The notes under the pieces are model-generated. The model ran no database searches. It was not told the origin of the DNA and saw nothing but the letters and a program-made list of their open reading frames with translations. Positions 47,638-63,433 of a DNA stretch of 64,000 bases are shown here, piece by piece. The position numbers were made by a program, and so were the translations under genes. This DNA is from Onthophagus taurus. Lineage: Eukaryota; Arthropoda; Insecta; Coleoptera; Scarabaeidae. The stretch lies in contig NC_091975.1 of NCBI RefSeq assembly GCF_036711975.1, positions 2,668,501 to 2,732,500 on the forward strand. Direction: 5' to 3'. Every line of letters starts with the position of its first letter. The stretch's first letter is position 1.

Positions 47638-50600
47638 TTAAACTTTTTGGCTCGATAAAGCTGTTATCCACTCTTCAACAGGTTCTTTGTACTGCGACAA
47701 CCATTTTATGTTATTTCTTACAGTTTCTAAAGCTCTTAATCTAGCACTAGCTCCAGCTCCAGCATTTGGATATTTTGCGAAAAACGCTTCCATCTACAAA
47801 AATTAGTATTTGGTTGTAAAGTTCTTAAATAATATGTATATAATTTCAATAATTCTAGCCGAGGTCGTTAGTTTTGTAGCTCTTTATTTTCTAAGTTTTC
47901 AAAGTAACAACTCGACCACAAATGACCTTGGTTTATATTTTCGTTAGTCCAGATAGGTTTAAGCTGAGGTCGCTTGCAGCCGAGGCGCTAGCTCGGTAGC
48001 ACCGCACTCGGTAAAGTTTCCTTTCAAACGACCTTGGCTCATATCTTTGCTGATTCTAATAAATTTTAATCTAGCAAATTTTTGCACAGCAAGCACTCTA
48101 AGCTTAAATTTATCTTAATCATAACAGGACCCCTATTGTAAAGATACAATTACCCTTAGGAAAATTAAAGACATGAATGAATTATTCGTCAAGGTTAGAA
48201 TTAATGTGACAGGTAAAAGTGAAACAGCTGATATTTTTCCTTATTTGCCCAAAAACCGACTAAATGGATTGATGAATTTAAAAAGATCATTATTACATAT
48301 ATTGATTAAAAAAGAAATATCTACCTCATCTAATTTGGTTTGTGAAGAAAATGATTGAGTGATTGTTGGAATCATAGTACCTAAATTTCTTTCGTTTAAA
48401 GTAAATCTATCAACCAAATCTTCCCAGTGTTCTCTAAAACAATAAAAAATACAATTTTTAATATTTTTATAATAAATAGAAATTATTTTATGAAAAATAC
48501 CTAACATATTCCCAAACGATTGGTGTCCCAATAGTGTTATAAGAAATATAAGCTAAGCACGAAAAGTAATCTTGACTCCTAACGTACGTTTCATCTTTTG
48601 AAGCTAACTCAATCAGTTTTGTAAGATACGAAGGATCTTTAATGCTAGCTAAACCATATAAAAGACGTAATTTTTCCCCAGCATCTGCTTCGTTCGCAAA
48701 TTTATCGAAGAGTTTATCCCAATACTCAACAGGGCTATTTTTCATTCCTTTAATTATAAATTATAATTAATAAAAATTAATTTTGTATTGAAATTTTTTT
48801 ACCATAAATATAAACCATTTGTCGCAAATCCTGAGATATATCCGATTCTGTTCCGTCTAACCAATCTTTAAATAATTTAGAAGCTTGTTCATTACATTCT
48901 TTCATTCCCGCGCTGCAAGCTAAATTTAAAACTGTCGATCTCGCACGTCTGCAATAAATTTTATATTTATTTAAGCAAAAATTGTTACGGTTTAGTACCT
49001 GTCTAAATGACCATCTGTATCTTTTTCTTCAAAACCGTATACTTTATAAGCAGGTTCAACAAGACTACTAACATATTCCTACAAGAAAATATTAATTAAC
49101 GATGAATACTTTATAAAATCAAATATTTACTTGTAAATTTGTGTATACATTCGAATTTTGTAAGAAACGCATTACTTCTCCAACAACGGTACTAAACGCA
49201 CTCCATGGTACATAATCCCTTTCATCCGCCATCTTTTTAGAGAGATCTAAAGGAATATTGTAGCTAATGTGACCGGATTCTGCCAATCTAAATGTTTCTT
49301 CAATTAAATGCGTTCTGTCAACTGTATCCATCATTTTTATATTATTTATTAAATCATTCCAATGCCCATCTTCATAATTTACTCTGTAATACCCAACTTG
49401 ACGGGAATTAAATTTCAACCACGTTGCATCAGATGGTTTCTCAATTGTAACTAAAAAAAAACATTAATTTTTTATACATATTATTTATTTTATTATCAAA
49501 ACCTGATTCGTCATCAGGATGAAGCCAAATTACTTCAGTAGAAACTCCTTTATCGGTAACATAAGTTATTGGGATAATCCATTTGTAACTAAAACATAAA
49601 TCAAATAATAAAAAAACATTTTTTTATTTATTTCCACTAACTTGTAAGGAATAGCCTTTGCTTCTTCAGCTTTACTCTGATCGGTTAAATATCTCTTTTG
49701 TGTCAAAGTATATTTGTTACCATCACTTTTTACGGTTAAAACTGGGTAACCCATTTGCATGGTCCAAGTGTTCATAAACTCAGTGACATTAACATCATTA
49801 AAAAGATCTTCAAGTTCGTTCCAAAAATCATCAGTAACCGCGTTACCAAATTTGTATTTATTCAAATAATTCGTAACCCCCGTTTTAAATACATTTTCAG
49901 TAACTGCATTTTCTAACATTCTTAAAACGGAAGCTCCCTTACTGTAAGAAATCGTATCAAAAATCGATGTTATTTCATCCGGAGTAAGAACAGTTTGAAC
50001 GATTGGGTGCGAACTTAAAGCTGAATCGATTTTCAAAACGTTATGTAAATCTTCAATTACAAATTGATCCATCTAAAATTAGTGTAATTAAAATTTTTAT
50101 TTTGTAAATTAAGCTATTTTTACCATATTCCAAGTTGGTTCAACCGCATCGACACCTTTGTATTCAATGTATGAAGCAAAACCTTCATTTAACCAAAGAT
50201 CGTTCCACCAATTCATCGTTACTAAATTTCCGAACCAACTGTGAGCGAGTTCGTGTGAAATAACGGTCGCCACTCTTTGTTTATTAGCGGTTGAACTTAT
50301 TTTTGAATCGTATAATAAAGCTGTTTCTCTAAAAGTAACTAATCCCCAATGTTCCATAGCTCCTGATACAAAATCTGGGATTGCGGCCATATCTGTATTA
50401 ACAGGAAATAACATTTTATTGCAGACATTGCAATGCAGATAATATATTAAGAAGCCGTTAAAGAAATAAAGAAGCCAATAACCATATCTATTTGGACCAG
50501 TTGTTCAAAAGAAGGGATGATATCATAAGAATGATCAATGTCCAGAAGGGAAGAAAAAACTCTAACAGTACTACACACGAAACTGCTGTCCAATTGACTT

Positions 50601-52329
50601 GGATCACTCTATAATAAGATAACGAAGCTTTACATTGAAGTAGTGCCAAGTTTTAGCCATCTGGGAAGCATAGTAAATAACACAGGAAGTACGACAAGGG
50701 ATCATGAAGGGGACTAAAACACAAAACCCATTTAATGCAGTTCTATAGTCATCGCTTATTCTACGAAATACCAAGATACAAAGGACATGGAACATCCGCT
50801 GTGGAAGTTTACGAACTTATTTTTAGGAATTATCAAAATCGATACGCAACACTGAAATGTGATCAAAATTTCTATATTTATTTGCAGAGGAACCCAACCC
50901 CCCTTCATAATACCATGAGTATCCACAAAAACCAGACCATAACAGGTATTCACCAAGCATTACAGGATATATTCTAATAGCACAAAGAAATTTTTGGTCC
51001 ACGAAAATGAAAGTGAGTTTGATCATGTTTTCAATTATAGTTTCAATTTCTTACCTAATTTTGGTAACGGATAATCAAGTCCAAAGTATCCATTAAAATA
51101 TTCGATAACTCCTTTTCCCACTGAAAGGGCGTAATCTGTTTTATCCAGTTGTCCCGGAGTTGCGTATACTCTCAAAGGTACTTTGTCATCATTAAACGAT
51201 GTTTCTTTATAAGCAAAATCGCTCACAATAAAGCAAGCTAAATATGTTGACATTGATTCGCTTGGTTTAAATGTTACCAAAACACCGTTATCGACACGCT
51301 CAGTCGAATCCTATTTGAACGTTAAAAGTAATGATCAAATTCTTATTTTTAATATTATATTTACCTGATTCATATTTGATAGAGCGATGTATTTTTCATC
51401 GTCGCCAGGTATTAACAGGTGAACTGTGAACTTTGCCTTCATTTGAGGTTCATCGAAACATGGAAATGCTTGTCGAGCGTAAGTTGGTTCGAATTTTGAT
51501 GTTGCCATTGCTCTAAAAAAAATTAATTTAAAAATAAGTTCAAGTACATTTTAAATAACATAATTTGAGTAATTACTCAATCAATTAAATATGCAAACGA
51601 GGATTACAAACTTTCTAAACAACTTATTCAAAGTTACGTAATTAAGTAAACGATTAAAAAAATCTAGGACATTTATTACATCCTTTAAAATAGGTATGTT
51701 TTTTTTTATAATCACCTTTTAGTTTTGTTTTCGTCTTTATAATAGCTAAGATAAATTCCTTTAGTTTTATTTTTAATATTTCCATCGTAAGTAATCGTTA
51801 AAAAATATTTTCCAAAATCAATAAATTTTTTCTTAAAATAAATAACGATTCTCTGTAACTCGTTATCAATAACATAATTAGCCACGAGTTGTTGTTCTAA
51901 TGTAGCTACACTTTGAATCGTAACCTCACTTATATTTAAACCATAACTATTAATAATTACATTTTCTCGTTTATTTTCAACGTTTATTGTTATATTCACT
52001 TTTCCATTCACCACACCTAATTTTAAATCGGGTTTTAACGTTATGTCGTATGTTATGGGTTTAACATCTTTTGGTAAACGATAATCGTTTATGTTCTTTT
52101 CTGGTAACGGTTTCATTGTAACATTTTCTTTAAAATAATCCGGGTCGTAGTTATGTATGTAATGTTTTCCGATTAAAACCAAAGCTGTTAATAAGCACGC
52201 ACAAAAAACTGCGAGGAAAACGCAACAACTCAAAAGAAACGTTATTAACTTTCTTCGGCTACGTTTTCTCACTTTTATTGGTGGTGGTCGCATGTTTTGA
52301 TCGGGTTCATTTTCTGCGGATCCGTTCAT
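47638..52329 (-). CDS. Membrane alanyl aminopeptidase (M1), copy B
   Basis: Same family and topology as copy A. Exons 52329-51716, 51512-51365, 51310-51055, 50392-50124, 50072-49642, 49588-49503, 49450-49131, 49078-48999, 48948-48803, 48747-48501, 48433-48325, 47793-47638 give 953 aa, all phases consistent. A basic cytosolic tail (RKRSRRK) precedes the TM segment ([20 protein letters not shown]). The active site is intact: GAMEHWG (350-356), HELAH (386-390), Glu409. The C-terminal domain ends [16 protein letters not shown]. Two introns host repeats: a decayed LINE (51054-50393) and a SINE-like patch (48324-47794). The distal first exon at 53954-54492 could be an alternative start for this gene. 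Confidence 0.93.
47870..48065. mobile_element. SINE-like tRNA-derived patch, partly duplicated
   Basis: GCCGAGGTCGTTAG and GCTGAGGTCGCTTG head two related halves, each later followed by (A/C)GACCTTGG(T/C)T. The right half contains CTAGCTCGGTAGCACCGC, which resembles a tRNA A box (TRGCNNARNGG), typical of the head of a tRNA-derived SINE. A clean B box is not visible and no target duplication was found. Confidence 0.4.
50440..51000 (+). mobile_element. Decayed non-LTR (LINE) reverse transcriptase fragment
   Basis: Within copy B intron 3, plus strand around 50640-50705, the frame reads [21 protein letters not shown]. This matches the F.YLGS.....G....I block found at the end of LINE reverse transcriptase domains in insects. 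The surroundings are GC-richer than the intron average and show further short open pieces but many interruptions. Only a small 3' portion of an element is recognisable. Confidence 0.6.
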
Positions 52330-53953
52330 TTTTCAAATTATGACATTATTTTTCTAAGAAATAAATTAATATTTTTATGGATGAGACTTTGACCGAGATG
52401 AAAATAACGCGATACCGTTAACTGTATTGATGTGAAAGTAGTGTCTTGGTTCAACGACTGCTTCTCAAGAACGACGACTTTAAACTAACCGTAAGTGTTT
52501 TAAAGTCTGCGGCATTCGTTTGGAAAGTGAAGGTGAAATTATTACACTGGATGTTATCGTCTTTGGTCGATGGTTATTGGTTAACGTTGTTTTTGTTTTA
52601 AATCTAGTTAATTGAATTGAAATTGCTTGACGAAACAATATACTCGACAGAGAATAAATTATAATGGGATTTCGAAATATTATAATTTGTTTACGCGTAA
52701 AACTTGCGTCATATTTTTGGGGAGAAAAATATTGTTAAAAATACATTGTTATCTTTTATAAATAAACCAACAAGTGTCCACGAAGTATAATAATAAAACA
52801 AAATGTTTTTTTGATAAAATAAAATAGAGTACGCGATCATCCATCAAGTTGATATCAGATGACATCAGAACATAAGTTTATAAAACTTACAAATATAGTT
52901 ATTATTTATTATACTTTTGATTAAAACCAAAAAATCAAAACATATGGGTTAAGTTGAATTAATCCTTATATATTATAAATCATGATTAATCAAGATAAAA
53001 ATAAAATAAAAAGTTATATACATCTTAATATTCTATGATATATTACACATTATATAGATAAACTAGATCAAATTTATAGCTAATTCAAGGCTAAAAAAAA
53101 TTTATTATGACAAATTTAATACAATTCAAAATTGATTGATATGATAAGATGTCAAGTACGTCTTAAATATTTATAATAAAGCAAGGAGATCTTTAATATT
53201 TTACTCTAAATTAGGGACAATAATATCGTTTTCATGATATTTCTTAGTAATTTTATTATAAATTTACTATTAATACTTTATAATACAAAATTTAGGTTAA
53301 TTTTGAATAATGCCAAAATACACGAACTACACAAAGTAGTTAGATAGGTTGATATCAGCTAAGAGTACATTGGAATGGTGTGCACTTAAGACGCAGAACG
53401 TATCGACTGTCTATTAACATGCCAGGCAAACAAACTTTCATTACTAATTTCCTTCCGCCGTTTCTGGCAAGTTTTTGGCGAAATTTTTGGCAAGTTTCAG
53501 CAACTAACTGATTAATGAATTTTTAAAACTTCATAGATGACTTATCAGGTGCACCCTTTTAGATAGTTACTTCTAGTTTTAGTTGGTATTCAGCGTTAGA
53601 TTGTTGTATTTTTTTATTCAAAGCTAGTAACAGTTGACTGAGAGTGATACGTGGTGTGACGTATTGGTCCTATACTGATATCATTTTCTTGATTACAAAA
53701 GAATAAGGGATGAAGCAGTCCTCTTAAATTCTACCGTTCTTGACAAAAACTTAACTAAAGCTTATTAGGCCATTCATTGACAGTTAATAAATTTTTTGTA
53801 ACTAATTTGGGAATACCAAGTTAGTAAATAAAGAAGTTATGTTTGTCACACCCGTTACGTAACAATGTCACGCCCTATACACAATGTACACTCTATTGGA
53901 AAGGTTTATATATGATAAGACATTAATTTAACATTAAAAAAAATTAAACTCAC
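52330..53953. other. Spacer between aminopeptidase first exons
   Basis: No gene. It is the 5' flank of copy B and, if the distal exon is an alternative start, an intron. At 53360-53510 there is a less AT-rich stretch containing three spaced TGGC(A/G)A(A/G)(A/T)TTT units; I could not assign it to an element. Confidence 0.4.
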
Positions 53954-54492
53954 CTCTCCACACCATTTTCAACATATTTACTAACGTACAACCCTACGAT
54001 ACGATTTCTCATATCTCCATTATATTCAATTGTAATCACATGACTTCCCACGGTTAAAGTTTTCGAACTTTTCAAAACGATCAATTCGTGAAGTTCGTCT
54101 TTTTCATATTGAGTTGATTCAGAATCGATCTCGACGCTATCGATGTTCAAACCGTTGCTGTGTATTTTAACGATCGACGTTTCTTCCGAAACGTCCACCG
54201 CAATGGTCACTTTACCATTGTAAAGTCCTTCTACTAAATCTGGATATAAATATAAGTCGTATGTTTTTGGTACGACATTTTTGGGGAGACGATAATCGGT
54301 CATGTCTTCTTCCGGCGTTGGTTCGGTTGTTGTTGGATTATCGGTTGTCGATTCTTCTTCGGATTTGCAAGAATCTAAATCGTCTTTAAGACTTGTATTA
54401 TCCACTCCTAGGATTGTCGTTGATATCCCTAAGGCGATGGTGGCTAAGATAAAAAAGCATAATAGCTTGTTAGAGAGTAACCACGAGAACAT
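53954..54492 (-). CDS. Orphan aminopeptidase first exon (copy C)
   Basis: A 539-bp exon encoding an N-terminal hydrophobic anchor (LLCFFILATIALGISTTILG, about 10-29), a Thr/Glu/Pro-rich stalk, and the first beta strands of the M1 N-terminal domain (YRLPKNVVPKTYDLYLYPDL). It ends at AG|GTGAGT in phase 2, the same place and phase as the first exons of copies A and B. No M1 exon lies between it and copy B exon 1. It can only splice to copy B exon 2 at 51512, skipping exon 1, or it is a relic of a third gene. The reading frame is intact. Confidence 0.75.
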
Positions 54493-56459
54493 CCTGTTTG
54501 AAACGAGAATCTACCAAAACTAAGTAATCAGCAGTCTCTGGATATTGAATCATGGGAGCAAATTGTTTTATCAGCTTTAAGATTAAATTATATATTATGT
54601 ATTGATTGGTTAGATTCGTGAAATAAATTTGAGTAGGAAACTTTTAGAATTAATAAGTTAAGTATATGTAAGTATTGTATATTTGAATATGAAATATGTT
54701 TTTCGATTATTCTTTTATTGTTTATTAGGAGATATTGTTTTTGTCCTGTTAAAATAAAATTTTCAGAAGTGTTTAATAAACAGAAGAAGTTATCGTGATA
54801 TTTTAATCAAAATTGCTTTCAAAAGTACTTCACCAATTTATTCTTTCTTTGTCGTAAAGAATTGGAGTTTATCCCAATAGTAAAGTGTTTTATTGAGGCC
54901 TATTGTAAAGAAATTGTTGTAACAATAAGGTTTTGAAACTCAAAATATTTATTCACTTTAAAATAAAATTTAACAGTCGTCGTCAGAGAAATTTTGTAGA
55001 TTAGATAACGTTTGTTACATTTATTGTAGTGTTAAGAATTTATTATTGTAGTTTTTTGAGCAATAATTATTAATAAAGTCGATTTTAACTAAATTATGAT
55101 AAAAATATAAATCTAGACGATTTAATCTATTTGATTCGTCCAGATATTTAATTATAAATCATTATAATGTATTGGGATTAAATCGATTTTTAAAAATGAT
55201 TATCTAACTAATTTTTAACTTTATATATCTTATCAATCAAAAACATCAATTATTTTAACATTGAAATAATGTAATATTAATATTTATTGGTGTATGTTAA
55301 ATTTTGAAATATTTATTTATTTGCAGATCAAATTAAACTGTAGAGAATTGCAACAACTACTCGACGCTCTGATCATGAATCATTAAGACCTTCAACCCAC
55401 CCCAATCTAAATAGTTAAGGTAATCATTAATTTGGTTGTAGAAAGTTTTGGAATTAAGCTTGTTCTTTTGCGGCTTTAGATCATGGAAATGACATCTTTA
55501 AATATCAAAGGATTAGGAAAGGAGCTTCGCTACCGTTACGAAAGCTAATAATAATGTTAGTCATGCTTGCCCAATTAGCACAAATAAGTATTTAGAATAT
55601 GTTCTACAACCAATTTATTATTACTAATTGAAAATAAAAAAAAAATAAATAGGCAACCCAAATAACACCTCTGCTAAATATATCATCAAAACATAACCTA
55701 ATATAACATTTATCTCCTAATGGGATAATTTCTCAACTTTATACTTTATTTTAAACGACACATACATTAACTTACATTGTTTAGGTAAAAAATCCTTCCT
55801 AAAAGCAGGAGTTTTATTCCAAAAACTTGATTTAATGAAACTTTTATGAAAAGATGACTCTGCAAAATGCAAAACAGTACTATTCTGTATTAAAAAAAAT
55901 TGCATTTAATTTAGCTTACGTTTTCTATGAAATCCCAAAGAAATCTTGTTTGTTTTCAGGTAAGGATCTATCTAAAACAGATTATCTATTACCCAAAGGG
56001 AGATAAGGTAAAAGGAGGATGTTCATTAAATCTAAATAAACAGAGGCTTTAAATGTCACATCCATTCATTAATTTAAACGGTAAACAGCAAATTAGTACC
56101 TCTTTAACATTAAACGTGCAAAAACTATTGATAACACCCCTAAACTGTCTTAATTTATAAGGGTGCATTATATTCCTTTAAGAATGATGTCTACGTTCAA
56201 TAATTCCCCACGTGATTTTAAGTTTTGACATTTATTTAATACTTCACTAACAAAAATTAAATTCTTAATCATAATTTATCATAAAAATCACACTTCCTTC
56301 AATTAACTCAATTTAATTAAATTGAATTTATTATTTATAATGATTTATATTCGGGGTGCGTTCATTTATTATCCATGCTGCTTTTTGACAGTTCACAAGT
56401 GTTGATAACTTAACCTCAAACAAATTTAAATAAATTTGTGTTTTTATCAATAAAAATAC
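54493..56459. other. Gene-free spacer before NOL9
   Basis: About 2 kb of AT-rich DNA. Short inverted arms (TTGGTTGTAGAA near 55432 and TTCTACAACCAA near 55603) are 160 bp apart, possibly a degraded MITE. A plus-strand open piece at 55326-55385 follows a TTTGCAG but has no partner exon. Confidence 0.4.
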
Positions 56460-58503: not shown

Positions 58504-58511
58504 CTCTTTTT
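58504..58511 (+). promoter_or_regulatory. 5'TOP-like start tract (CTCTTTTT)
   Basis: A C followed by seven pyrimidines at the predicted start site, giving a 5'UTR of about 31 nt. 5'TOP starts are typical of ribosomal-protein and snoRNA-host genes, not of most methyltransferase genes. Confidence 0.5.
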
Positions 58512-58534
58512 AGCTCCACTCTGCACGTGTTAAG

Positions 58535-59513
58535 ATGGGGGATGAAACTAACCTCGATAAAATCTTAACGGATGAAGAAAAAGATTTAATCGTAGCCCAA
58601 AATTCAAGGTTAGTACCTCAATTTAAAGCGAATCAATTAGAAGAACACGCCCAAAAACATTGGGACTTATTTTATAAGAGAAACGAAAATCGATTTTTCA
58701 AAGACCGACATTGGACCACGCGTGAATTCCAAGATCTTTTAAACGAGAAATATCAATGTGAAAAGCGGGTTTTATTTGAAATTGGTTGTGGTACTGGTAA
58801 TTTTATATTTCCCCTTATCGAAGCGGGATTAAATTTTGAAATAATAGCTTGCGATTTATCAAAAAGAGCCGTGGAGATTGTAAGAAGAAATAAATTGTAT
58901 AATAAAACGTTTAACGTTTTCGTTGGGGATATAACGGTTGATAATTTTGATGAAGTTAAATCAAATAGTGTCGATATAGCAACGTTAATATTCGTTTTAT
59001 CAGCAATTCATCCCGATAAATTTATTAAAACGCTTAAAAACATTTTTGATAAGTTAAAACCTGGGGGTGTTTTATTATTCCGTGATTACGGTCTTTACGA
59101 TATGGCTCAGTTAAGATTTAAAGCTGGACATAAGATATCGGAAAATTTGTATATGAGGCAAGATGGTACGAGGTGTTATTATTTCTCTTTGGATTTTATT
59201 AAAAATGTTATGGAGAAAGTTGGGTTTGAAATTATCTCGAATGTTTATGTCCATAGACGTACTATTAATAAAAAGGAGGGAGTTGATGTTCCTCGGATAT
59301 TCGTACAAGGAAAATTTCAAAAATCTTCCTCTGAAAAAGGTAATTATTTTTTAAATGTCTTTTTCATTTAAGCTTTTATGATGAAATCAATTTAATAAAT
59401 GAGATTTTAAGTGATTTATTTTATTATTAGCTCTATCTGAAATAATATAGTACAATATGTTAATTTTAATTTAATTTCAATTTATAATTAAATTTTATTA
59501 ATTACAGGTTAAA
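58535..59513 (+). CDS. METTL6: METTL6, tRNA 3-methylcytidine methyltransferase
   Basis: SAM-dependent enzyme that makes m3C32 in tRNA-Ser in animals. The coding part is essentially one exon, 58535-59339, with the last codons supplied by the next exon at 59509 (G|GT then TAA), giving 269 aa ending SSSEKG. Unspliced, the frame would end at 59371 with a different 10-aa tail. Seen: the N-terminal KHWDLFYKRNENRFFKDRHW block, SAM motif I FEIGCGTGN (81-89), IACDLSKRAVEIV, FVLSAIHPDKF, KPGGVLLFRDYGLYDMAQLRF, MRQDGTRCYYFS, and RRTINKKEGVDVPRIFVQGKF near the end. All match METTL6/METTL2-type proteins. The downstream exons seem to be non-coding and host snoRNAs. Confidence 0.93.
59374..59444 (+). ncRNA. 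Box C/D snoRNA, SNORD44 (U44)-like
   Basis: C box ATGATGA 59378-59384 and D box CTGA 59437-59440. The guide directly upstream of the D box, TATTAGCTCTAT, pairs over 11 nt with the universally conserved 18S segment UAGAGCUAAUA. This is the target of vertebrate U44 (18S Am166 in human numbering, from memory). Position 5 upstream of the D box faces the A in UAGAG. It lies in the intron 59340-59508, with the D box ending 68 nt before the 3' splice site. No clear D' box is present. Confidence 0.72.
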
Positions 59514-59545
59514 TATGAGTCGATTTATTGGAGATTTAAGCCAAG
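59509..59545 (+). other. Non-coding host exon 2 (after METTL6 stop)
   Basis: A 37-nt exon between AATTACAG and CAA|GTGAGT. It supplies the METTL6 stop codon (TAA 59511-59513) and then an unrelated ATG opening a 25-codon frame that runs into the next exon. Confidence 0.55.
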
Positions 59546-59586
59546 TGAGTATTTTTTTGTGAAGCATTTTTTTATTGGGGATTATT

Positions 59587-59666
59587 TAAATGATGATTTC
59601 ATAGTTCAACTGATTGTTTTAATGATTAGTAACTAGCATTTTGTCTTTCGCTCCTATCTGATAAAG
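59587..59666 (+). ncRNA. Box C/D snoRNA, SNORD80 (U80)-like, copy 1
   Basis: C box ATGATGA 59591-59597, D' box CTGA 59611-59614, C'-like ATGATTA 59623-59629, D box CTGA 59659-59662, with TTTA/TAAA at the termini. The D guide GTCTTTCGCTCCTAT pairs with 28S AUAGGGGCGAAAGAC (15 bp, one G.U). The D' guide contains CATAGTTCA, complementary to UGAACUAUG in the same 28S domain. Both guide cores are those I remember from vertebrate U80. The D box ends 68 nt before the 3' splice site at 59730. Confidence 0.85.
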
Positions 59667-59730
59667 AAAACCAATTTTTACATATTAATTTATTTTTATA
59701 ATTTCAAAATTAATACAATTTATTTTTAGA

Positions 59731-59795
59731 TTAAAATTCTACAACAAATGATTTCTGAAATGAAGATTATAAAATAGAAGAGAAATCTATGAAGG
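59731..59795 (+). other. Non-coding host exon 3
   Basis: A 65-nt exon between TTATTTTTAG and ATGAAG|GTAATC. It closes the short frame begun in the previous exon (TAG at 59776-59778). No conserved protein. Confidence 0.55.
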
Positions 59796-59847
59796 TAATC
59801 ATTAATTTAGTTATTAAATGATTTGATTTTTTTATTAACTGAAGGTT

Positions 59848-59927
59848 AAAATGATGATTTCATAGTTCAACTGATCTTTCAATGATTAGTAACTAGCATT
59901 TTTGTCTTTCGCTCCTATCTGATTAAA
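59848..59927 (+). ncRNA. Box C/D snoRNA, SNORD80 (U80)-like, copy 2
   Basis: Nearly identical to copy 1: C box ATGATGA 59852-59858, D' CTGA 59872-59875, D box CTGA 59920-59923. Both guides and the ATGATTAGTAACTAGCATTTT core are unchanged; differences sit in the linker after D' and one extra T before the D guide. The D box ends 76 nt before the 3' splice site. It arose by duplication of a whole exon-intron unit or of the snoRNA alone. Confidence 0.85.
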
Positions 59928-59999
59928 AAATAATTCAAATCTATAAATTATATCATATTTATTAACTGATTAATTTAAGCTTTATTTTTTTTTTATAGA

Positions 60000-60068
60000 A
60001 TTTAATGGAATTTGAGGATGGTTTAAAAAGGAATTCATAAATCTCACCAATAAAGGCACTCAAAAAGG
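60000..60068 (+). other. Non-coding host exon 4
   Basis: A 69-nt exon between TTTTATAG and AAAAAG|GTAATA, with no significant open frame. Confidence 0.5.
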
Positions 60069-60112
60069 TAATAATTTTAATTTTTAACTTAATTTTTATT
60101 AATTTTAAGCTT

Positions 60113-60182
60113 TAAATGATGATTGGCATGCACCACTCTTAATGTTTACTCTGCCGATAAAGAAGCCATTACACTGATTCGA
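60113..60182 (+). ncRNA. Box C/D snoRNA, SNORD32 (U32)-like
   Basis: C box ATGATGA 60117-60123 and D box CTGA 60175-60178. An internal CATGCACCAC is followed by a degenerate D' (CTTA, 60139-60142). It is complementary to the conserved 18S segment GUGGUGCAUG, the same element and spacing as vertebrate U32 (18S Gm1328, from memory). The guide upstream of the D box (GAAGCCATTACA) has no rRNA target I can name. The D box ends 70 nt before the 3' splice site at 60248. Confidence 0.7.
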
Positions 60183-60248
60183 TTATATTTATTATTATTA
60201 ATTAGTAATTAAATTGATTTATAGATTAATTTAAAAATTTTTTTTAGG

Positions 60249-60702
60249 TGTCTTTCGATGGATATTTACTACTTTTCTACTTTATTTATATTAACCATAA
60301 TGTTAGAAAGAGGTTGTCTGATAGTTTTAGTCTGATCAAATCTCCATTATGAATTATAAAATATATAAAAAAATGGTGTGATGAATCGGTTTTTGGTTAC
60401 CTTTATATTTTTCCAAGATCATTTCCAATTCCTGGGGGTTAGAATCGTTTGTTATACCGCTTTTACTATTTCCCTTGATTAAATTTACTAATAGTCAAAA
60501 TTCCAAGATTTAAGATAAAAATAATAATTGAAAAAGACCTTAGTATATATGGCAACAAAATGATAAGGAAACTAACGACTAAAATTGAAACTAAATTTTG
60601 GATTAAATATACAAAAGAAAACGTGAATTGCAAATTTACAAAAAATATATAATTTAATATGAAAGATATTATGTATAAAGATATATTAATAAGTTAACCT
60701 TA
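60249..60702 (+). other. Terminal host exon and convergent 3' flank
   Basis: Begins after TTTTTTTAG. It is AT-rich without coding potential, and no further C/D boxes with proper spacing were found. It meets the transferrin 3' end head-on; AATAAA-like signals occur near 60706. Confidence 0.4.
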
Positions 60703-63433
60703 CTAAAATAAATTCATGATAATTGTCGTGAAAATTAAAAGAGTCGTAGTGACAAAAGTGATTGATCTAATCCCTTTCGAGGGATTATCTGCTACACCAG
60801 ATCCTTTGCTACAATCGCCGATATGCTTAAATAGTTCAACGTAATTTTTGATGGGTGGTTTCTGTGAGGTTGGAACAGCTAAACCTGGAGTGGAATCCTT
60901 AAAAATTAAGAAAGAAAATAAATCAATTCAATTCAAATCCGTTTTTGGTGAAAATTACTTTAAATAATAAATCCTTGGTATTGTTAAAGCTATCGAATAA
61001 TCTGAAGGGTGTGTGAGTTTTAGCGGCAAACCATTCATCATATTGTAATAATGCTAATTGGATGTCTTTATTTAATGGGTCGTTAATTCTCGTAATAACC
61101 TCGCTCGTTGTTAGAGTTGATAAATAACATCCTTCGTCCACATTAAAAGCATCCAACGTCGAAAATGTCCCGTTTTTACACATTACTTGAACGTTATTGG
61201 GGAATACTAACGAAGGATCTTTGACGATCACAGCGAAATCTCCTTTTTCCTCCAAACATCTGAGTGCACCAGATGTGTTAAAGTATAAATTTGTCGCTTC
61301 GGATGCCTCACAAGTTTTTCCTAAAAAGAAATTGTTAATACATTATTATTTTTAATTTAATTTTTATGTACCTGTTTCTGTGCATAATTTGCACATTTTT
61401 TCAGAATCAACTGTATTGTGGATGGCTCGGTTAGTTTCTATAGCTCCAGGCATGCAAGAATCGCCCAAAAAGTCGCTCAATAATTTTCCGTAATCGCAAG
61501 ACTCGTTTGATAAAACAATTCCTCTTGTGGCTTCGACGAAAGATAACCAAGCGATACCGCTGTATAAAGGAAAACATCCTTTTTTACCTTTCAAATTTTC
61601 TAATCGTTCGATATTTCTATCGTTTTTAACTAAAAGTAAGGTGTTTATTTCTTGATTATTATACGTTTCAGGAAAAGCGATTGCTGATAAACCATATCTA
61701 AAAGAAAATTATGTTTGGTGGTAAATATATTAATAGAAAATATTTTTACTTTTTCGCCGCATATCCTAAGTCGGCGGATGTTGTTATTAAATCAGCACTT
61801 TCATTGTTATTACTAATTGCTTTAAGACATTCTAATTCACTGGATTTTTGAACGCATTCAACAACCGGTTGGATTCCGTAATTTATACTGGCTTGAGATA
61901 ACCATTTACATTTGGTTTGCTCATTATCGGAAGTTGTGCACCATCTCATTTTGCGTTTGCAGATGATTGAATCGTCTGGGGATGGAATATCTCGAAAACC
62001 TGCACAAAAAAAGGAAAATTCGATTAACACTAGATCTAAAACTAGAAATATTCGGGTTTAGCCGTACGTCTCTTAAGACGGCAAAATCCGCATGTTTCTA
62101 GCCTAGGTTTAGTGTTGGTTCTAATGCTAGTGTTAGTTCTAGTTTTAGTTGTTAAATACGAATGTTTCTAATTCTAGATTTAGTTTTTTATAAAATTTAT
62201 TTTCTTACTTTTTATAAAGTTTCCCCAAGCATTCGAGGTGTTGTCATTGAATAACTTGTAATTCACAACAACGTTATTCAATTCTTTGTTATTGTTGAGA
62301 ATTTCTTTAAGATATCTTAAATCTTTTTCATCTAAATCTGATTCACTATCCTCGCTGCCGTCTTTATTAAAAACCTCTCTTGATAACCATTTCTTTAGAG
62401 TATTTTCTAGGTTGCCAGGTTGGCTAAAAGTAATTTAATCAATATAAATTAAATACATGAGTAAATTTTTACCTTTGATGGTTGCTCATAATTAATATTG
62501 GATATGGTTGTTTACTCCAACTACAAGGCGTATTTGAAACAGTTCCATTTTTGCAATAATACCACAAAGCTTTGTTAGTTGTATTAATTTTATTATTGAT
62601 TGTATTTGATGTAGTTAAAGCAATCGAATGTTTCGTGTTCAACATGCACTGTAACGATCGTTCTAAAGGATCTCCATTTAAGTTTGGACATAATTTAATT
62701 AATCCCGGATGTTTATCATCTAAAAATTGAATTCTTAATATTTGTTTTAACCCTTTTTTTGTAACTTACGTAAATGTTCATCCAATTTTTTATCAGGTGT
62801 CCACACCCCATCTCTACAACTATCTCCAAAAATCTTGTTTAAGGCGAAAATTTCCCATTCAACCGAAGTTTCAAATTCAGTATCGCAATGATTTGAATAC
62901 TTTTTAAAAACGTGTTGTTCAAATTCTTTTAAAATTAGCGGAGGAATCAGGGTGTTTTCAAAGCCGGGATGGCAATAGCTTAATCCTTCCAGTGATTCGA
63001 ATTTTTCTTCCGATACTACAACCGTTTCATAATCGAACTCCACGTTTCTTGCCGTTTCCGGTATGATTTGGGCGAACGGAACAACGTTCGATATTAATCC
63101 ATTCCCCAGGAATGCTGTTTCGGCGTTTATCGAACCAAAATCGATTTCGCCTGAATCGATTTTTATTAAACAACTCGCTTCATTGTCTACATATTCGCAT
63201 TTAATGCGGTTGTTTCGTTCCAATTGACCACAAATGTTTTCGTGTTTCTTCAAAGCGCATATTTTATCTGAACGTTAAGTAAGGTACAAAAATTAATGAT
63301 TAATAAGGGCGTGGTCCATAAAAAGATTTTTTTTAATAACTTTTTTGATTAATCAGTTTTAGGATTACTTACAACTGTATGTTAAGTTAACATAAAAGAA
63401 TATGATGAAGAGAGTTTTTTGTAGCAACTTCAT
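60703..63433 (-). CDS. Transferrin-family protein with GPI-type tail (Tsf3-like)
   Basis: Exons 63433-63373, 63267-62770, 62719-62473, 62423-62209, 61999-61750, 61697-61372, 61320-60959, 60897-60703 give 717 aa. A signal peptide (MKLLQKTLFIIFFYVNLTYS) is followed by two transferrin lobes rich in Cys: CALKKHENIC at the start of lobe 1, SYCHPGFENT, CKRKMRWCTTSDNEQTKC at the start of lobe 2, then KGKKGCFPLYSG and SGALRCLEEKGDFAVIV. The C-terminus is a hydrophobic tail (FVTTTLLIFTTIIMNLF) after a small-residue stretch (KGSGVADN), the form of a GPI-anchor signal. The expected iron/anion ligands look lost in both lobes. That points to Tsf3-type or a divergent melanotransferrin rather than an iron carrier. 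The subfamily is less certain than the family. Confidence 0.87.
62040..62170. repeat. CTAG/TTAGT-rich degenerate microrepeat in transferrin intron
   Basis: Runs of CTAG(T/A)TTTAG, GCTAGTGTTAGTTCTAG and TTCTAGATTTAG, with TTTCTAGCCTAGG and TTTCTAATTCTAG flanks, form a short low-complexity cluster with internal near-duplicates (GCATGTTTCTAG / GAATGTTTCTAA). Confidence 0.5.

Follow-up and report, generated by a model that had tools for sequence, protein, structure and literature searches.

METTL6 and its predicted tail exons

The analysed window is a 64-kb stretch of Onthophagus taurus DNA. The reading frame at 58535 was confirmed as METTL6, as its closest solved relative is METTL6 across nearly the whole chain: in a phmmer search, human METTL6 (8p7b_A) was the best solved match with an E value of 6.5e-85 over query residues 9–265 of 278, and Pfam analysis placed methyltransferase domains in the frame. 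NOL9 lies upstream on the same strand, with CLP1_P and Cupin_NOL9 domains above their cut-offs and NOL9_C below its own. A transferrin-like gene lies downstream on the opposite strand, where one of the two ORFs tested gave a match (21.8 bits; cut-off 20.3). Pieces of M1-family aminopeptidase were found at 49566–54510 on the minus strand in all four ORFs tested, and since they include two M1 N-terminal domains, they probably represent at least two tandem genes. The features in and around METTL6 are as follows:

58504 to 58511, plus strand: candidate TCT/5'-TOP initiator CTCTTTTT, just upstream of METTL6
58524 to 58529, strand not applicable: candidate E-box (CACGTG), a few nucleotides before the METTL6 ATG
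58535 to 59339, plus strand: METTL6 coding exon, 268 codons plus one nucleotide before the first donor
59340 to 59507, plus strand: predicted intron 1, 168 nt, GTAATT...TTACAG
59508 to 59544, plus strand: predicted exon 2, 37 nt, holding the METTL6 stop TAA at 59510–59512
59545 to 59729, plus strand: predicted intron 2, 185 nt, GTGAGT...TTTTAG
59730 to 59794, plus strand: predicted exon 3, 65 nt, without a long reading frame
59795 to 59998, plus strand: predicted intron 3, 204 nt, GTAATC...TTATAG
59999 to 60067, plus strand: predicted exon 4, 69 nt, without a long reading frame
60068 to 60247, plus strand: predicted intron 4, 180 nt, GTAATA...TTTTAG
60248 to 60400, plus strand: predicted exon 5, cut arbitrarily at 60400, which is not its true 3' end (the next AATAAA is at 60707)

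A preliminary description of this DNA had reported short exons with canonical splice sites after METTL6. These are present, their splicing being predicted; the end it gave for the first exon (59339) was correct, but its seven downstream boundaries were each off by one. Exon 2 likewise has no long reading frame. The first donor, a GT directly after 59339, falls within the final METTL6 codons, and the stop codon ends 5 nt into exon 2; the introns are thereby tied to the METTL6 transcription unit. When intron 1 is spliced, one codon is gained before the TAA and the product is 269 aa; when it is retained, a stop follows after 278 aa. The predicted enzyme is complete in either case.

Several exon junctions had also been placed downstream of the stop. 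Three do lie there, at 32, 97, and 166 nt past it, but the stop itself is inside exon 2 and junction 1 falls 5 nt before its end. The full transcript had been expected to be a target of nonsense-mediated decay (NMD), as GAS5 is; this is at most a possibility. Two of the three junctions are more than 55 nt away and would satisfy the mammalian 50–55-nt rule for NMD, but this rule is doubtful in insects. In Drosophila, mfl mRNA with additional spliced 3' UTR exons was reported to be detectable as poly(A)+ RNA (PMC1821038).

Four box C/D snoRNA candidates and their guides

To locate box C/D elements, a strict scan (RTGATGA followed by CTGA 35–90 nt on) was run over the whole 64-kb window on both strands. 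Four pairs were found on the plus strand and none on the minus strand, and all four were the intronic candidates listed below. The claim of one C/D snoRNA in every intron therefore agrees with the candidates in the four predicted introns.

59378 to 59440, plus strand: C/D snoRNA 1, from C to D box, with guide TATTAGCTCTA as in U44
59590 to 59661, plus strand: C/D snoRNA 2, U80/snR60/Z15 (Rfam span 59581–59669; RF00309, 65.5 bits, cut-off 41)
59851 to 59922, plus strand: C/D snoRNA 3, second U80/snR60 copy (Rfam span 59842–59930; RF00309, 61.1 bits, cut-off 41)
60116 to 60177, plus strand: C/D snoRNA 4, snR40/U32/Me18S-Gm1358-type, with D' guide CATGCACCACT and degenerate D' box CTTA

All four candidates carry a C box RUGAUGA and a D box CUGA at normal spacing, with C-to-D spans of 62–72 nt, and all four have an rRNA-complementary guide in register adjoining the D or D' box when degenerate D' boxes are allowed. 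Dinucleotide shuffling of 59340–60260 (2000 shuffles) gave a mean of 0.0235 pairs and a maximum of 2; none of the shuffles had four or more pairs, and a pair carrying an rRNA guide appeared in one. Because only four pairs occur in 64 kb, all of them intronic, and the shuffles were nearly devoid of them, the four pairs are not attributable to chance. Equal or longer rRNA complementarity was also found off the guide position, namely 14 nt with 11 Watson-Crick pairs in snoRNA 1, 15 nt with 13 in snoRNA 2, and 14 nt with 12 in snoRNA 4; the guides are singled out by their place next to a box, run length alone being insufficient.

The distance from the end of the D box to the 3' splice site was 67, 68, 76, and 70 nt in introns 1–4, respectively, in agreement with the earlier values for introns 2–4 and 1 nt short of the 68 nt given for intron 1. 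The terminal stems showed just short, interrupted pairing, mostly A-U, and this was counted against the snoRNA-host reading. The covariance-model search that had been proposed as a check gave a divided answer: the two U80 copies passed the Rfam curated cut-offs in the window, and snoRNAs 1 and 4 failed.

The rRNA references used for the guides are contaminant or stray eukaryotic sequences from sources other than Onthophagus taurus, comprising the whole 18S in loci L010 and L019 and a 100-nt 28S-like piece in L008. A scan of genome contigs gave 12 loci (L009–L020) filed under bacterial names, all 12 with the 18S start motif, and the five run against Rfam were all eukaryotic SSU. The eukaryotic 18S in these contigs looks like contamination. 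L008 was the one locus of the viral-contig scan whose opening piece reads as 28S, and it is absent from the Rfam matches. The search pattern that retrieved this piece included the U80 site, so the U80 guide test was not blind. A scan for the second U80 target gave 78 IMG/VR loci, and the comparison of the U80 guides with rRNA covered the D guide. Seven viral-contig loci considered as rRNA gave no Rfam rRNA match and were treated as chance.

The guide of snoRNA 1, one nucleotide from the D box, forms 11 Watson-Crick pairs with 18S in both references, and its fifth base pairs with A164 of the L019 18S. Rfam contains a SNORD44 model; the 18 Rfam rows with E values of up to 10 all lie outside 59340–59507. 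The reverse complement of a primer for the 3' end of human U44 ends in TTAGCTCTAACTGACT (PMC10743478), and the guide register of snoRNA 1 is that of human U44. Chicken U44 was reported to guide 18S-A165 (PMC2653536). On these grounds snoRNA 1 was filed as a guide isolog of U44 (SNORD44) and not as a family member. The U80 family named in the preliminary description is thus firm by Rfam, but its U44 family stands by the guide, without a covariance-model match. SnoRNA 1 seemed to have another 18S guide when compared with L019, but this was dropped because L010 has other letters there. An AATAAA at 59394–59399 lies inside snoRNA 1, soon after its C box, so that polyadenylation there and production of snoRNA 1 would be mutually exclusive.

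SnoRNAs 2 and 3 are assigned by the Rfam matches to U80/snR60/Z15 (RF00309, snosnR60_Z15) as predicted new sequences of the family. Each forms a 15-bp D-guide duplex with the L008 piece, with 14 Watson-Crick pairs; in this 28S piece the final G of ATAGG is the partner of the fifth guide base. The two snoRNAs are identical in 80 of 87 aligned columns. When introns 2 and 3 were aligned with gaps counted, using element limits set by the analyst and with AT-rich flanks that align poorly, the 49 box and guide columns showed no differences, the spacers differed in 4 of 24 columns, and the flanks in 68 of 132 (Fisher 0.0098 for box and guide vs. spacer; 6.6e-13 vs. flanks). The copies look old enough for their introns to have diverged, with the presumed functional parts unchanged.

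The D' guide of snoRNA 4 forms an 11-bp duplex with 18S, 10 of the pairs being Watson-Crick. The fifth pair involves G1271 of the L019 18S, and G1271 is the site of yeast snR40. All Rfam scores for this candidate were below the cut-offs: the best row was snoMe18S-Gm1358 (RF00533) with 23.3 bits (cut-off 50), and snR40 (RF01201) and Z221/R21b gave 17 bits (cut-off 50) and 18.8 bits (cut-off 44), respectively. The guide letters CATGCACCACT of the RF00533 consensus, a Drosophila model, are identical in snoRNA 4, which differs from snoMe18S-Gm1358/snR40/U32 in its D' box CTTA and is diverged in the remainder. It was therefore filed as a guide isolog of snR40/U32, two names (snR40 and U32A/B) that the chicken snoRNA survey assigns to one site. 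The second guide before the D box (AAGAAGCCATTACA, 60138–60177) had no 18S target in guide position; it could possibly be a guide for 28S or snRNA, or an orphan guide.

Comparison with known snoRNA hosts

The closest described counterpart is Drosophila mfl/Nop60B, in the region called 'dUhg 6'. Its variable 3' UTRs hold four DmSnR60 copies, each in an intron of its own and some 70 nt ahead of the 3' splice site, and alternative poly(A) sites release nested sets of snoRNAs, an architecture demonstrated by RACE and Northern blots (PMC1821038). Both loci consist of a protein-coding RNA-modification gene with one C/D snoRNA per intron, and both have tandem snR60-family copies with a spacing of about 70 nt to the 3' splice site. 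By sequence alone, the METTL6 locus has the mfl-type layout of a coding gene with one snoRNA per intron and introns at or after the stop. The two differ in that the Drosophila host is a pseudouridine synthase and not METTL6, and in that mfl/Nop60B carries four snR60 copies together with two snm60 RNAs and an H/ACA snoRNA; the portion of the report at hand mentions no U44 or snR40 type (PMC1821038).

The preliminary description had called the locus GAS5-like. The likeness holds for the short exons, the snoRNAs arrayed in introns, and the presence of a U44 guide and U80; in the chicken gas5-like gene, introns 4 and 5 each contain a U80 copy and intron 7 contains U44 (PMC2653536). However, GAS5 is described as non-coding (PMC2653536), with a 5' TOP and, in chicken, 10 box C/D snoRNAs, whereas the METTL6 locus has an intact ORF in exon 1. 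Because of its non-coding nature GAS5 is the second-best comparison, and Drosophila mfl/Nop60B matches better. In chicken, for which 93 box C/D snoRNAs were reported in total, the counterpart of U32A/B lies in KPNB1. The chance of at least two of three families falling in GAS5 was 0.012–0.042, given nine GAS5 families among 70–130 C/D families; these counts are assumptions and the question was asked after the result had been seen, so that the value is a hint only.

The links between snoRNAs and their hosts have been reported to be unstable across eukaryote evolution (PMC3511168), and a new host for U80 is thus no surprise. The earlier remark that METTL6 is undescribed as a snoRNA host agrees with a search of open-licence literature: no such description was found in the passages on METTL6 and snoRNA host genes, and METTL6 is absent from the titles and abstract openings listed for insect or beetle hosts. 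As the layout, one snoRNA family, and the spacing are the same in mfl/Nop60B, the architecture is already known and METTL6 is a further example of it; what looks new is METTL6 as the host. It is also conceivable, though improbable, that a single snoRNA cluster of an ancestral bilaterian, made up of U44 and tandem U80, gave rise both to the METTL6-tail cluster and to vertebrate GAS5, and that it was captured by or fused to METTL6 here while its U80 part moved to mfl in flies. If this were true, hosts would change while linked snoRNAs travel together.

METTL6 as a probable dual-output gene

Probably, METTL6 is a dual-output gene that yields a protein and four intronic C/D guide RNAs from one transcript. 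The proposal that METTL6 is the host of the four introns is supported on sequence grounds: the sequences with their splice-site motifs, boxes, and guides are established, as is the identity of METTL6, and from these we infer a common transcript, the splicing and processing of its introns, and methylation guided by its snoRNAs. A single RNA polymerase II transcript would start just upstream of the METTL6 ATG and carry the METTL6 frame in exon 1; its four short introns, the first at the close of the coding region and the others in the 3' UTR, would each be freed by splicing. C/D proteins would assemble on each snoRNA, whose distance from the 3' splice site favours this, and the debranched intron would be trimmed by exonucleases to the guide RNA. 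SnoRNAs 1 and 4 would then guide 2'-O-methylation of 18S rRNA at the U44 site and the snR40/U32 site, and snoRNAs 2 and 3 that of 28S rRNA at the U80/snR60 sites, in two copies. Since the METTL6 protein is nearly the same from the spliced (269 aa) and the intron-retaining (278 aa) RNA, snoRNA and protein output could vary harmlessly.

On this dual-output reading, a tRNA methyltransferase gene joins the coding genes whose tails can yield rRNA methylation guides, and a further case with snR60 copies is added after Drosophila mfl/Nop60B. If the arrangement recurs in related species, it would be well suited to studying whether snoRNA families pass between hosts singly, in line with the reported mobility (PMC3511168), or as linked groups, and whether the balance of host protein and snoRNA is tuned by splicing of the introns in the 3' UTR.

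The AATAAA at 59394 could end the METTL6 mRNA before the snoRNAs, and this was counted against dual output. A version of the dual-output reading that accommodates this signal, and which we hold as a tentative possibility, is that most METTL6 mRNA is cut and polyadenylated in intron 1 and that read-through spliced RNA alone yields the snoRNAs, as in Drosophila mfl. Polyadenylation signalled by the AATAAA at 59394 and by that at 60049 would produce nested sets of snoRNAs, and alternative poly(A) sites are reported to be used in mfl (PMC1821038); however, AATAAA is common in DNA so AT-rich, and the signal at 59394 is the one inside snoRNA 1.

A separate non-coding host gene that overlaps METTL6 and has its own start inside the METTL6 coding exon is unlikely. 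Dedicated hosts do exist, as with the Uhg genes in flies and the non-coding hosts described in vertebrates (PMC2653536), but there is no room for one between METTL6 and intron 1, as the first donor already falls within the final codons of METTL6 and the first exon of any host using that donor must overlap METTL6. The TCT/E-box pair also lies upstream of METTL6 and not within it. That the snoRNAs are transcribed independently of a host or are dead copies is very improbable, for although two candidates fall short of the covariance models and the terminal stems are weak, canonical C and D boxes with guides are present in all four, the differences between the U80 copies are confined to spacers and flanks, and the intron spacing is typical of splicing-coupled snoRNAs.

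The two motifs upstream of METTL6 were noticed after the fact, and their frequencies should be read in that light: YYCTTTYY occurs 44 times on the plus strand of the 64 kb, so that about 0.09 are expected in the 131 nt before the METTL6 ATG, and CACGTG occurs six times in the 64 kb, with about 0.013 expected in 135 nt. Genes that host snoRNAs have been reported to use TCT/TOP starts (PMC6954239), and in Drosophila the Myc peaks at Uhg1, 2, and 5 were described as centred on E-boxes (PMC4430873). The TCT-like motif and the E-box would be equally suited to METTL6 itself as a translation gene. Another of the six CACGTG boxes lies at 56209–56214, approximately 250 bp ahead of the NOL9 frame.
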